Assembly (NCBI GenBank): GCA_903834765.1
Contig: CAILKE010000048.1
Span: 1-41,827, forward strand
Origin: an uncultured Bacteroidota bacterium
GTDB taxonomy: Bacteria > Bacteroidota > Bacteroidia > B-17B0 > Aurantibacillaceae
DNA: 41,827 nt
Direction of reading: 5' to 3'
Below are positions 556 through 35,156 of this stretch, one piece after another. Position numbers and translations under genes: made by a program. Each line of letters opens with the position of its first letter. Position 1 is the stretch's first letter. The notes below the pieces were generated by a model. That model was not told the origin of the DNA. It saw only the letters and a list, made by a program, of their open reading frames with translations, and did not search any database.

Positions 556-570
556 ATTCATACATTTAAA

Positions 571-600
571 AAACGCAGAGCAAAAGCTCTGCGTTTTTTT
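571..600 (+). terminator. Rho-independent terminator
   Basis: An 11-bp perfect stem (AAACGCAGAGC with GCTCTGCGTTT), a four-base AAAA loop and a run of seven T. It closes the transcript of the T9SS remnant and sits just before the promoter-like box of the next gene. Confidence 0.85.
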
Positions 601-18328: not shown

Positions 18329-19744
18329 TTATCGCGGTCTATGTCCAGCCCCACCGCCATTATTTATTGGAGTTGAACCACCATTATTATTATTTGGGGT
18401 AGGTGTATTATTATGCTGCTGATAATTATTATTTCTTAAAGGTTCTTGATAATTTGGTTTTGTTTCAATAGGTTTTGTTTCATATTGATTTCTTGTTGGT
18501 CTTGTATCAATGTTATTATTATTATTAATGTTATTGATTGGCTGTTGTTCGTAGGTATTGTTATTTTGTTGTTGATGATATGAATTGTTATTTCTTACTC
18601 CATTATTACCATTTGTGTTTCCATTCGAATTAGTTGGTGTAGTATAAATATCAGCACTTGGCTCTATTTTATGTGTACCTTGGTTGACTCTTGTAGGTTT
18701 AGTATTTCCGTTATTATCATAAATAACGGATGATTTAATGTTATTTGTATTCTCAATCACATTACCTTTGCTGTCAACTCTGATAGGATTATTTTCATTT
18801 ATGATTTTAACATGAGATAAAGGTTCGAATTTTACAGCTTGATTTTGATGTTCATTAACAGAACTAACAAATCTATTATAGTAGCTGTTGTCATTTGAGT
18901 TAGATGTCATTCCAGCACTAGATGTTCTATGTGCGTTACCTCCTCCGTGAGATCCACGAGGTCCATAAGTATATTGACTGTTGTTATCATAACTGTTGTA
19001 ATAGCCCCAACCATTATTATAACCATTACCATAATAATTTCCATAATATCCACCGTAAGGATTATAACCTCCATATCCATAAGAATTATAACCATAAGCA
19101 CCATATCCATAATAATTTCCATACCCGTATGGATAGTTATTCCATCCGTTATTATAGCCATTATAATAACCATTATAATAACCATTGTAATATCCATAAC
19201 CATAAGAGTTGTTATAGCAATAAGGATTATAGCCATTATAGCCGTAGCTAGGATAGCTATTCCATCCATAACTATTATAAAAATTTGCTTGAGGATTGTA
19301 ACTATAATTATTGTAACTATTTCCCCACCAACTATAACCATTATAAACACTCACGCCATAACTATAAGGGTTTTGGTTGTACCAATAAGAATTTGTGTAA
19401 TAATTATCGTAATAGCTTAATCCGTTGATATTGTTATTGAAACGCTTAACACGCGTTGCGTATTCGTAATCATAATAATCGTCGTATTTAAACTCTCTGT
19501 CTTTGTATGCAGGATTAGCCTCATCTTTTGCTTTCTGAGCAAGCATTATGTTTGACAAAGAATCTGAATAACGTTTGTCGGCTATATCTTTTTGTTTCTT
19601 GCGAATATCTGCAATACGAGCTTCTTCTTTTTTATCTTCAGTTGGATTTGCATACATGTCGTCATTGAAAGAAACTATTTTTTGAGTCGCACATGACGAC
19701 ATTAGCAGAATAGCTAAGCCTGATATTATAACAAACTTGTTCAT
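18329..19744 (-). CDS. Tyr/Asn/Gly-rich low-complexity lipoprotein
   Basis: From the ATG at 19744 (471 residues) it begins with a lipoprotein signal peptide (lipobox LMSSC, acylated Cys18). A charged helical stretch (about 35-80) is followed by a low-complexity core (about 109-260) with near one third Tyr, by my count about 52 of 152 residues, in units such as YYNGYYNGY and YGNYYGYGAYGYNSYGYGG. A last part (about 280-470) is Asn/Thr/Pro/Gln-rich. No catalytic domain is visible. Weakly conserved proteins of this look are, from memory, found near FadL-like genes and proS in Flavobacteriia. It is probably anchored at the outer membrane, and a matrix or adhesive role is only inference. The frame upstream to 19780 adds 12 residues before the signal peptide and was not used. 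Confidence 0.82.
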   Translation of the reverse strand: MNKFVIISGLAILLMSSCATQKIVSFNDDMYANPTEDKKEEARIADIRKKQKDIADKRYSDSLSNIMLAQKAKDEANPAYKDREFKYDDYYDYEYATRVKRFNNNINGLSYYDNYYTNSYWYNQNPYSYGVSVYNGYSWWGNSYNNYSYNPQANFYNSYGWNSYPSYGYNGYNPYCYNNSYGYGYYNGYYNGYYNGYNNGWNNYPYGYGNYYGYGAYGYNSYGYGGYNPYGGYYGNYYGNGYNNGWGYYNSYDNNSQYTYGPRGSHGGGNAHRTSSAGMTSNSNDNSYYNRFVSSVNEHQNQAVKFEPLSHVKIINENNPIRVDSKGNVIENTNNIKSSVIYDNNGNTKPTRVNQGTHKIEPSADIYTTPTNSNGNTNGNNGVRNNNSYHQQQNNNTYEQQPINNINNNNNIDTRPTRNQYETKPIETKPNYQEPLRNNNYQQHNNTPTPNNNNGGSTPINNGGGAGHRPR

Positions 19745-19771
19745 GTTATTAGTTTTTAAATTATGAGATGA

Positions 19772-19800
19772 TTGAAACATCTAATAAAAGTTTAAATTTG
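19772..19800 (+). promoter_or_regulatory. Promoter of proS
   Basis: TTG (19772-19774), 18 nt, then TAAATTTG (19793-19800), a full -7 match. It predicts a leader of about 70 nt before the ATG at 19880, containing the palindrome at 19814-19827. Confidence 0.55.
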
Positions 19801-23392: not shown

Positions 23393-23428
23393 AAAATCCA
23401 TTCGTTTATGCGAATGGATTTTTTTTAT
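23393..23428 (+). terminator. Rho-independent terminator of rpmE2
   Basis: A 12-bp perfect stem (AAAATCCATTCG at 23393-23404 with CGAATGGATTTT at 23411-23422), a 6-base loop and a T run. Confidence 0.88.
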
Positions 23429-28616: not shown

Positions 28617-28658
28617 AAAAAAAGAGTCTAATATTTTTATATTAGACTCTTTTTTTTT
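28617..28658. terminator. Bidirectional terminator between pruA and the reductase gene
   Basis: A 14-bp perfect stem (28621-28634 with 28639-28652, core GAGTCTAATAT), a TTTT loop, T run after it on the plus strand and an A run before it, so it works in both directions for these convergent genes. Confidence 0.9.
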
Positions 28659-33063: not shown

Positions 33064-33477
33064 TTAATTCAAATGATAGAAGAAAAAGAAAACAGCTGCT
33101 GCAGCCCATTTTTTATTGATATTTTTAGCATAACCAATTGTGCTATAGTTAGAGTTTTGCAACGTACCATTTTCTTTAATATAACCAATCGTTGAGTAAT
33201 TAGAATTTTGAACGGTGCCATCTTGTTTGATATATCCTATGGTTGAGTAGTTTGAGTTTTGGATTGTTCCATCAGACTTAATATATCCCACGGTTGAATA
33301 ATTAGAATTTTGAACGGTTCCATCTGATTTAATATATCCAATAGTAGAGTAATTGGAATTTTGAACAGAGCCATCATCCTTTATATATCCAACGGTAGAA
33401 TAATTACTGTTTTGCACAGTTTGTGAGAAACTTAACTGCGTTATTACTATGAATAGTGAAAATAAAAAAAGTTTCAT
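33064..33477 (-). CDS. Beta-flower-type repeat protein with six 17-residue repeats
   Basis: A small secreted or surface protein of 137 residues. A signal peptide (about 1-18) is followed by six tandem 17-residue units of the form QNSNYSTIGYIKSDGTV (about residues 21-122), then a short hydrophobic tail (WAAAAVFFFFYHLN). Units of this type resemble the 5-fold beta-flower proteins annotated in Bacteroidota, a recollection I cannot verify. The unit sequence is nearly invariant in protein but the DNA copies differ at many silent positions, so selection acts on the protein. The tail could be a membrane anchor or a barrel end. Downstream of murI by 38 bases on the same strand; ligand and role unknown. 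Confidence 0.8.
   Translation of the reverse strand: MKLFLFSLFIVITQLSFSQTVQNSNYSTVGYIKDDGSVQNSNYSTIGYIKSDGTVQNSNYSTVGYIKSDGTIQNSNYSTIGYIKQDGTVQNSNYSTIGYIKENGTLQNSNYSTIGYAKNINKKWAAAAVFFFFYHLN
33112..33417 (-). repeat. Six tandem 51-bp coding repeats
   Basis: Six in-frame 51-base units encode the 17-residue repeats of the beta-flower-type protein. They share the spacing and the conserved protein pattern but differ at many third-codon positions. Confidence 0.85.
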
Positions 33478-33515: not shown

Positions 33516-34358
33516 TTATTTTAAACTTAGGTGATTAGATTTTATTTCATTTCCGTAAAATAAACTCGCTTGTTTATCAAATAATTCTGCAGAATCTGTT
33601 GTCAAAAATTGTACGCTTCCATTTTTTGAAATTAATGTCTCCATTTCTGGATGCCTCATTAAGTAATCTTTCAAACCATCAGCAACTATATGTCCTTGTG
33701 TTAATATGTTAACTTGTTTGGGCAAATGTTTTTCTATCAAAGATTTTAATAATGGATAGTGGGTACAACCTAAAATAATGGTATCAATATTTGCTGATTG
33801 TGAAAATAAATGATCTATATGTTTTTTTACAAAATATTCTGCGCCCGCACCACTCAATTCATTATTTTCAATTAAGGAAACCCACATAGGACAAGCTTCT
33901 TGAAACACTTTTATATCTGGATAAAACTTTTCTATTTCAATTACATAAGATTGAGAGGAGACAGTTCCGCTTGTTGCAAAAATGCCAACATGGTTGGTTT
34001 TAGTATAGTTTCCTACGATTTCGGTTGTAGGTCTTATTACACCAAGAACTCTTTTTTTAGAATCTATTAAAGGTAAATCTTTTTGTTGTATGGTTCTTAA
34101 CGCCTTTGCTGAGGCGGTATTGCATGCAAGTATCACTAATTCACAACCATTATCAAAGAGTTGATTAACACATTGTAAGGTGTATTCGTACACTGTTTCA
34201 AAGGATCGAGATCCATAAGGAGCGCGTGCGTTATCGCCTAAATATAAGTAATCGAAGTGGGGGAGTGAACTTACTAATTCTTTTAAAATTGTTAGTCCGC
34301 CGTATCCTGAATCAAATACGCCTATAGGAGAATATGTTTTTTGCTCTTTTATAATCAC
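33516..34358 (-). CDS. murI: Glutamate racemase
   Basis: Makes D-glutamate for peptidoglycan. The 280-residue protein starts at GTG and shows PIGVFDSGYGGLTIL (about 11-25), GDNARAPYGS, the first catalytic Cys79 in LACNTAS and the second, Cys198, in LGCTHYPLL. The promoter-like CAAAATTA box (minus-strand TAATTTTG) abuts the start, so the message may be leaderless. Confidence 0.96.
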   Translation of the reverse strand: MIIKEQKTYSPIGVFDSGYGGLTILKELVSSLPHFDYLYLGDNARAPYGSRSFETVYEYTLQCVNQLFDNGCELVILACNTASAKALRTIQQKDLPLIDSKKRVLGVIRPTTEIVGNYTKTNHVGIFATSGTVSSQSYVIEIEKFYPDIKVFQEACPMWVSLIENNELSGAGAEYFVKKHIDHLFSQSANIDTIILGCTHYPLLKSLIEKHLPKQVNILTQGHIVADGLKDYLMRHPEMETLISKNGSVQFLTTDSAELFDKQASLFYGNEIKSNHLSLK

Positions 34359-34360
34359 CT

Positions 34361-34391
34361 CAAAATTAACTTATTATAATAAATTTAACAA
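34361..34391 (-). promoter_or_regulatory. Consensus promoter reading into murI
   Basis: On the minus strand TTG (34389-34391), 20 nt, then TAATTTTG (34361-34368). The -7 box ends 2 nt from the GTG start, which implies a leaderless message or a start somewhat further in. Confidence 0.45.
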
Positions 34392-34400
34392 TTATTTTAA

Positions 34401-34422
34401 ATTAGATGTTGTAACATCTAAT
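34401..34422. promoter_or_regulatory. Palindromic operator between murI and yceI
   Basis: ATTAGATGTT and AACATCTAAT form a perfect 10-bp inverted repeat with a 2-bp spacer. It covers the -33 TTG of the yceI promoter and lies 10 bp upstream of the -33 TTG of the murI promoter. The form suits a dimeric repressor, for example of the MarR type often linked to YceI genes; no regulator gene is in the window. Confidence 0.6.
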
Positions 34423-34438
34423 TTTATACATACATTTG
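34409..34438 (+). promoter_or_regulatory. Consensus promoter of the yceI-family gene
   Basis: TTG (34409-34411), 19 nt, then TACATTTG (34431-34438), a full match to both Bacteroidota elements. The leader would be about 34 nt. Confidence 0.72.
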
Positions 34439-34478: not shown

Positions 34479-35093
34479 ATGAAAACAACGTTTAAAACAT
34501 TATTAGCTGTTGCAGCTATTTCGTTAAGTGCAAAAGCACAGACAAATCCGATAGCTATCGGATGGAATGTAGATGCTTCTCATAGTAAAATGGGATTTGC
34601 TGTAACTCATATGATGGTAAGTGAAACTGAGGGTAAATTTAAAATTTATGAAGGTAAAGTATCTTCTAAAACTGAAACAGATTTTACGGATGCGTCTATT
34701 GATTTTAAGATTGATGTAAACAGTGTTAATACTGATGATGAAAAACGCGATGGTCACTTAAAAAGTCCAGATTTTTTCGATGTTGCTAATTTCCCGAACA
34801 TGACTTTTAAAAGTACTTCAATGAAAGCTAATCCTAAAATAAAAAATTCTTATATTTTAACTGGAGACTTGACTATGCATGGTGTTACTAAAAAAGTAAC
34901 TTTAACTGCAATCGGAGCTTCAAAAGTTGTTAAAGATCCTTACGGGTTAATGCGTTATGCATTTAAAGTAACAGGTAAATTAAACCGTAAAGATTTTGGT
35001 TTAACCTGGAACGCAGCTTTAGAAGCAGGTGGTGTGGCAGTAAGTGAAGATGTTCGAATTGACTGTACAATCGAATTAACAAAAGCAAAATAA
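34479..35093 (+). CDS. YceI-family secreted lipid-binding-like protein
   Basis: A 204-residue protein with signal peptide MKTTFKTLLAVAAISLSAKA and the lipocalin-like YceI fold: WNVDASHSKMGFAVTHMMVS (about 29-48), then VNSVNTDDEKRDGHLKSPDF and TGDLTMHGVTKKVTL (about 128-142). YceI proteins bind amphiphilic, often isoprenoid, molecules in the periplasm; the exact ligand is unknown. An 18-bp perfect palindrome lies inside the coding region just after the signal peptide (34546-34563). ATG start, own promoter with an operator, and a strong terminator. Confidence 0.93.
   Translation: MKTTFKTLLAVAAISLSAKAQTNPIAIGWNVDASHSKMGFAVTHMMVSETEGKFKIYEGKVSSKTETDFTDASIDFKIDVNSVNTDDEKRDGHLKSPDFFDVANFPNMTFKSTSMKANPKIKNSYILTGDLTMHGVTKKVTLTAIGASKVVKDPYGLMRYAFKVTGKLNRKDFGLTWNAALEAGGVAVSEDVRIDCTIELTKAK
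34546..34563. repeat. 18-bp palindrome inside yceI, related to 61-78
   Basis: ATCCGATAG followed by CTATCGGAT is a perfect palindrome in codons 23-28 (NPIAIG region). A one-mismatch version lies at 61-78 next to dispersed repeat copy A. It may be a recurring genomic motif or the trace of a small insertion. Confidence 0.7.
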
Positions 35094-35114: not shown

Positions 35115-35156
35115 CAAACCCCTTATGAGTATAACTTTATAAGGGGTTTGTTTTTT
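35115..35156 (+). terminator. Rho-independent terminator of the yceI-family gene
   Basis: A 12-bp perfect stem (CAAACCCCTTAT with ATAAGGGGTTTG), a 12-base loop and a run of six T. Confidence 0.87.

Follow-up and report, generated by a model that had tools for sequence, protein, structure and literature searches.

The window, the whole stretch of 41,827 nucleotides analysed here, carries the gene yceI on the forward strand (34,479–35,093). Its product of 204 residues has an apparent signal peptide, as judged by eye, and a YceI domain (Pfam PF04264, 165.4 bits for a cut-off of 23.7); for PRK03757, the equivalog of YceI, it stays below the cut-off, at 112.2 of 232 bits. Behind yceI there is a terminator-like hairpin (35,115–35,150, forward strand), so that in the window yceI is probably transcribed alone. 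Passages of one study (PMC5350466) describe YceI lipocalins as widely conserved proteins with an unclear physiological role.

On the reverse strand lies murI, for glutamate racemase (33,516–34,358; TIGR00067, 192.3 bits, cut-off 146.65). Beside murI, positions 33,064–33,477 encode a small protein made almost wholly of repeats of about 15 residues (VQNSNYSTVGYIKDDG and variants), and elsewhere in the window (18,329–19,780) we find a protein with a long low-complexity stretch rich in Tyr, Asn, and Gly.

The palindrome and the yceI promoter

Between murI and yceI, positions 34,399–34,424 form an inverted repeat, AAATTAGATGTT-GT-AACATCTAATTT, with arms of 12 bp, a spacer of 2 nt, and zero mismatches. 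We call this site O1 and assign it no strand; its core ATGTTGTAACAT, at 34,406–34,417, is conserved in relatives. The first-pass annotation of this DNA had described a 22-bp palindrome with 10-bp arms, which is present and in fact understates the longer repeat that contains it. A genome search gives one exact copy of TTAGATGTTNNAACATCTAA in the 3.63-Mb genome, the copy upstream of yceI, and the next best match has 2 mismatches. As one looks for in a MarR operator, O1 is a near-perfect inverted repeat in intergenic DNA.

Another property one looks for is overlap with the core promoter of the target. The Bacteroides promoter consensus, as given in passages of two studies (PMC7366714, PMC2483708), consists of a -7 element TAnnTTTG and of TTTG near -33. 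The yceI promoter that we predict here by letter match has a -33 TTG (34,409–34,411, forward strand) right at the centre of O1, just as the palindrome had been said to cover the -33 element. The -7 element TACATTTG (34,431–34,438, forward strand) follows 19 nt after the TTG and matches TAnnTTTG (PMC7366714, in the passages on this motif), and the geometry is similar in relatives, with a conserved spacing between the two elements. Calling this a consensus promoter was right for the letters TTG, the 19 nt, and TACATTTG, but the window has GTTG at -33 where the published consensus has TTTG, a match of 3 out of 4 letters.

Next to O1 lies ATTTTATACAT (34,421–34,431, no strand assigned), which we interpret as a decayed second operator, O2. 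When sequences are aligned on the -7 element, most congeners have ATGTTATAACGT or ACAT at this place, and both the window species (G000) and its sister (G001) have lost the G and one base relative to them. O1 is a perfect palindrome in both of these species, although they differ from each other by one inserted base in its left flank and a substitution in its right flank, and the arms still match. Judged by this alignment, O1 is the putative remnant of a conserved two-operator yceI promoter. A further conserved element, TTTAAC, is seen about 45 bp upstream of the -7 element, at 34,384–34,389 in the window and at the aligned positions of the congeners.

Conservation of the site and a candidate regulator

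We read the upstream regions of yceI orthologs in gene orientation and aligned them on the -7 element. In most of the genus, ATGTTGYAACAT lies over -33, and 15 bp on we find ATGTTATAACGT, or else ...ACAT running into TATATTTG. Of the 17 congeners with a yceI ortholog, 16 carry the strict site TGTWNNWACA before this gene, and the seventeenth (G011) has CGTTGCAACA in its place. Absence of the palindrome upstream of yceI in relatives had been named in advance as the observation that would count against an operator, and what we observe is its conservation. Mean information is 1.34 bits in the site block versus 0.70 in the 22 columns farthest upstream, for the 16 congeners with enough sequence. Among other members of the family, two (G035, G020) have a single site placed against the -7 element, five (G022, G026, G029, G032, G034) have two sites, more or less exact, and two (G023, G031) have imperfect TGTA-type sites upstream of yceI. 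The yceI relatives of another two members of the family (G021 and G024, 55% and 46% identical) have no site upstream.

To cover more loci, the genome contigs were searched with a profile of the MarR alignment (the candidate regulator is described below), which matched at least 592 stretches. The best 80 of those, together with the whole-genome loci, provide 75 rows in which marR and yceI are together, or are split and the yceI upstream region is used; locus L126 entered twice. In these rows TGTWNNWACA occurs within 130 bp of the first gene in 63 of 75 (the strict site is absent in the remaining 12), compared with 23 of 203 control ORFs, which are other ORFs of at least 150 residues from the same loci and whose control stretches included non-intergenic DNA. 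Conservation before the same gene, as expected of a MarR operator, is thus seen both in the 16 of 17 congeners and in this larger set. Within the same set, drawn from the best 80 of at least 592 matches plus the whole-genome loci, successive sites are spaced by exactly 15 bp in 19 of 23 cases, and 49 of the 63 rows with a site have it followed by TAnnTTTG or TAnnTTG, the distance from the centre of the first site to the -7 element being 19–22 bp in 35 of these 49 and 5 bp in 8.

Searching for the regulator in the MarR family first, as the first-pass annotation advised, leads to a gene for a MarR protein of 149 residues. This gene is found behind yceI, on the same strand and some 60–160 bp away, in 14 of the 17 congeners having a yceI ortholog, and the two genes are split in the window species, its sister, and G015. 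Both yceI and marR are present in 17 of 20 congeners, and neither is in the other three (G007, G012, and G019, with completeness of 99%, 84%, and 76%), where there are only weaker, other YceI matches. The marR gene of the window species lies outside the window (G000:C21:38835-39281), with a DoxX-like and a pyrR-like gene as neighbours (names judged by eye). The 150 bp upstream of the unlinked marR hold no strict site in G000, G001, or G015, and on that ground self-control of the unlinked gene was rejected.

The candidate protein has a MarR domain above both Pfam cut-offs (PF12802, 36 bits for 27; PF01047, 31.8 bits for 24.6), and it reaches no NCBIfam subgroup cut-off (HpaR, 40.5 of 121.2 bits; SlyA, 33.2 of 120). 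Nor does it have the marks of an OhrR-type peroxide sensor, scoring 24 of 200 bits with NF052638 and showing no invariant cysteine column in the alignment. Cysteine occupies position 62 in 11 of 15 congener rows, and position 96 likewise in 11 of 15; the protein of G000 carries serine at both. The lack of any invariant cysteine rules against redox sensing by cysteine.

In 10 of the 13 linked congeners examined (G011 left out), we detect a terminator-like hairpin that separates yceI from marR (e.g. L065, L068, L073), and the marR start codon, placed by alignment, is TTG in 12 of 15 congeners and GTG in 3. These features suggest low-level production of marR, through read-through of the hairpin. 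Hairpin, start codon (TTG or GTG), and shared promoter taken together, marR is presumably low-level and self-regulating in most congeners.

Finally, we asked where else the site occurs. The composite pattern TGTTRYAACATNTAATGTTATAAC, searched with up to 3 mismatches in 60 genomes, gives 40 matches in 23 genomes versus 14 for the reversed control, and in all 11 genomes with a match at 0–1 mismatch this match is directly upstream of yceI. Since the pattern was drawn from yceI loci, only the absence of equally good matches elsewhere is informative. Two further matches, in G032 and G026, are found 13 bp ahead of a second marR gene. Matches elsewhere have 3 mismatches and may be due to chance. From these searches yceI appears to be the one main target of the site. 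The loose pattern RTGTTRYAACRY has 14 forward and 11 reverse matches in G000, versus 5 and 4 for the reversed control, and most of them are inside ORFs. A near copy of the palindrome with 2 mismatches (G000:C23:67986-68005; L037/L053) precedes an ABC exporter gene by about 20 bp. The site is absent upstream of all 11 other orthologs compared (identity of at least 55%; one further locus is cut), so the exporter was left out of the target count and rejected as a further target.

Recognition helix and half-site

All 75 rows (again from the best 80 of at least 592 matches plus the whole-genome loci) have either Asp or Asn as residue 77 of MarR. In the AlphaFold model of L123, which is 64% identical to the G000 MarR, this residue lies just before helix 78–88 (mean pLDDT 87.7), which we take to be the DNA-recognition helix of MarR proteins; the model matches structures of MarR, MftR, SlyA, and MepR solved with DNA.

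The identity of residue 77 goes along with the half-site. In the first set, that is, the rows with a site from the best 80 of at least 592 matches and the whole-genome loci, D77 is found with AACA in 34 of 35 and N77 with TACA in 28 of 28. Rows lacking an adjacent yceI and rows lacking a strict site are dropped from these counts. In six split genomes we replaced the marR upstream region by hand with that of yceI, after which two of the six (G031, G023) had no strict site. With the rule fixed beforehand, later loci give D77 with AACA in 13 of 15 and N77 with TACA in 30 of 36, which leaves two D loci (L298, L287) and six N loci as exceptions. This later set has 124 loci, 54 paired and 70 unpaired, and the first set had already included two of the unpaired (G056, G042). 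The 70 unpaired loci divide into D with 3 AACA, 0 TACA, and 28 without a site, and N with 18 TACA, 2 AACA, and 18 without a site; 1 is unreadable. Fisher values are 4.6e-17 for the first set and 4.3e-6 for the later loci, both of which ignore relatedness.

How much of this association is due to common descent? On two trees built without the helix columns, residue 77 switches 4 and 3 times, with one switch on well-supported branches, and much of the match between D/N and site could therefore reflect relatedness. The site letter switches 5 and 9 times on the same two trees, more often than the residue, and residue 77 thus does not explain every site. The switches are too few for significance, and we keep the D/N covariation as a correlation only.

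Two sets of loci deserve mention beside these counts. L298 is a D-type marR beside a yceI with TGTA sites, and a second marR elsewhere in the same genome (G261), L325, is of the N type; cross-control between these two paralogs is possible. In G023 and G031, of a related genus, an N-type marR lies apart from yceI (L026/L204, L023/L203), and yceI is preceded by imperfect TGTATACACA/TGTATAGACA sites. Although outside the strict count, these imperfect sites are in line with the helix correlation.

Readings of the palindrome

Comparison shows that the yceI promoter carries a conserved pair of operators, that marR is linked to yceI, and that genomes have either both genes or neither. Taken together, these observations make it quite probable that the palindrome is the main operator of the 149-residue MarR-family repressor, which would control yceI. 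The guess of a repressor operator in the first-pass annotation is borne out to the extent that comparison can do so, by the strict site in the congeners, and MarR, its first candidate family, provides the best candidate regulator, by its linkage to yceI there.

It is unlikely, in our estimation, that O1 serves as the operator of another regulator, such as a second MarR or a TetR protein, with the unlinked MarR no longer controlling yceI. The separation of marR from yceI in the window species and its sister would suit this possibility, and O2 has decayed as if control had changed; moreover, G000 has four PF01047 matches over the cut-off, the candidate included. But the recognition-helix stretch RMLDRMSDASRIVDKL of the unlinked MarR is identical in several linked congeners, several of which also have the same core ATGTTGTAACAT, and the palindrome is perfect in both species although its flanks differ between them by an insertion and a substitution.

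Slightly less credible still is that yceI and murI are both under a single regulator at O1, which would link lipid binding with the supply of D-glutamate, as had been proposed. Possible murI promoter letters do exist on the reverse strand (34,361–34,391), namely TTG at 34,391–34,389, 20 nt, and TAATTTTG at 34,368–34,361. The TTG is 7 bp from the edge of the palindrome, and G001 has the same layout. So far the claim of a divergent murI promoter near the palindrome holds; the role of these letters as a promoter is doubtful, since the TTG is part of a stretch, TTTAACAATTATTT, that G017 and G005 carry upstream of yceI with murI on another contig. Furthermore, murI adjoins yceI in only 2 of 30 yceI loci, and an operator-like site is found upstream of 2 of 25 murI genes, in both cases those of the window species and its sister; among the 23 murI genes without one, 3 have less than 45 bp of upstream sequence. 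With adjacency limited to two species, the murI-yceI neighbourhood appears to be probably recent, and the D-glutamate link is unsupported, though it may hold in these two species.

A role of the palindrome at the RNA level, where it would form a leader hairpin for attenuation or termination, is very improbable. A perfect 12-bp stem with a short spacer could fold, and the three other such repeats in the window (568–599, 23,393–23,422, and 28,617–28,656), each just behind the end of an ORF, look like terminators. On the other hand, no T run comes after the palindrome, relatives show two sites 15 bp apart and no single long stem, and the palindrome is upstream of both the yceI -7 element and murI and would therefore be transcribed from neither promoter. 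As for chance, an intergenic stretch of 85% A+T might favour it, but we give it practically no weight, as 40 first-order Markov simulations of the whole window produce a mean of 0.075 perfect inverted repeats (arms of at least 12, spacers 0–8) versus the 4 observed, and the site is conserved before yceI in relatives.

We return to O1 as the operator of the 149-residue MarR. A MarR dimer would bind the palindrome, cover the central -33 TTG, and keep RNA polymerase off yceI, until some ligand or stress frees the promoter for production of YceI. We deduce repression from the fact that the site overlaps -33 and -7, and MarR may instead activate yceI. In most congeners yceI and marR stand in a row behind the operator promoter, with marR presumably expressed weakly and under its own control. 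The marR of the window lineage, which lies elsewhere and lacks a strict site upstream, would act on yceI as a distant repressor; because the gene is unlinked there, we infer its pairing with O1 from the relatives.

O1, marR, and yceI probably make a solid but fairly ordinary switch. As in other MarR-family systems (E. coli MarR, SlyA, MftR, MepR, HpaR), the regulator is a winged-helix protein of about 150 residues, the palindromic operator lies over promoter elements, and the regulator is beside its target in most congeners. It differs from those five in its often tandem sites 15 bp apart, in having a YceI lipocalin as target, in the unlinked position of the regulator gene in the window species, and in a protein that falls in none of the NCBIfam subgroups by their cut-offs. 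Passages of PMC4349456 describe MgxR (Bxe_B3018) of Burkholderia xenovorans, whose operon includes a YceI gene. Like the present system it is a local regulator with a palindromic operator and a YceI-family gene under its control; unlike the present MarR it belongs to the TetR family, responds to methylglyoxal, and has an unrelated operator sequence, as far as those passages go (PMC4349456). BcnA and BcnB of Burkholderia cenocepacia are YceI-family lipocalins like the yceI product here, and differ in being in an operon with a cytochrome gene; the passages of PMC5350466 on them mention no MarR regulator or operator. The operator is thus of a known kind, that of MarR, and among the open-licence papers listed by our searches none was seen to describe a MarR/YceI module for Bacteroidota.

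A broader reading is possible, and we put it forward only tentatively. A MarR/YceI module found in Bacteroidota, Ignavibacteriota, and Calditrichota may use two operators fixed 15 bp apart, with residue 77 at the head of the recognition helix setting the TGTT or TGTA half-site. The window lineage would have rewired it: the regulator left the operon and no longer controls itself, and of the two operators one decayed and the other turned into a full palindrome. The D/N helix residue versus the TGTT/TGTA half-site would be a testable specificity code, for instance with the duplexes TGTTATAACA and TGTATATACA. A dedicated, conserved regulator with a defined operator would provide a handle on when YceI proteins are made. 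And the signal that releases MarR, once found, would make the role of YceI in Bacteroidota testable.
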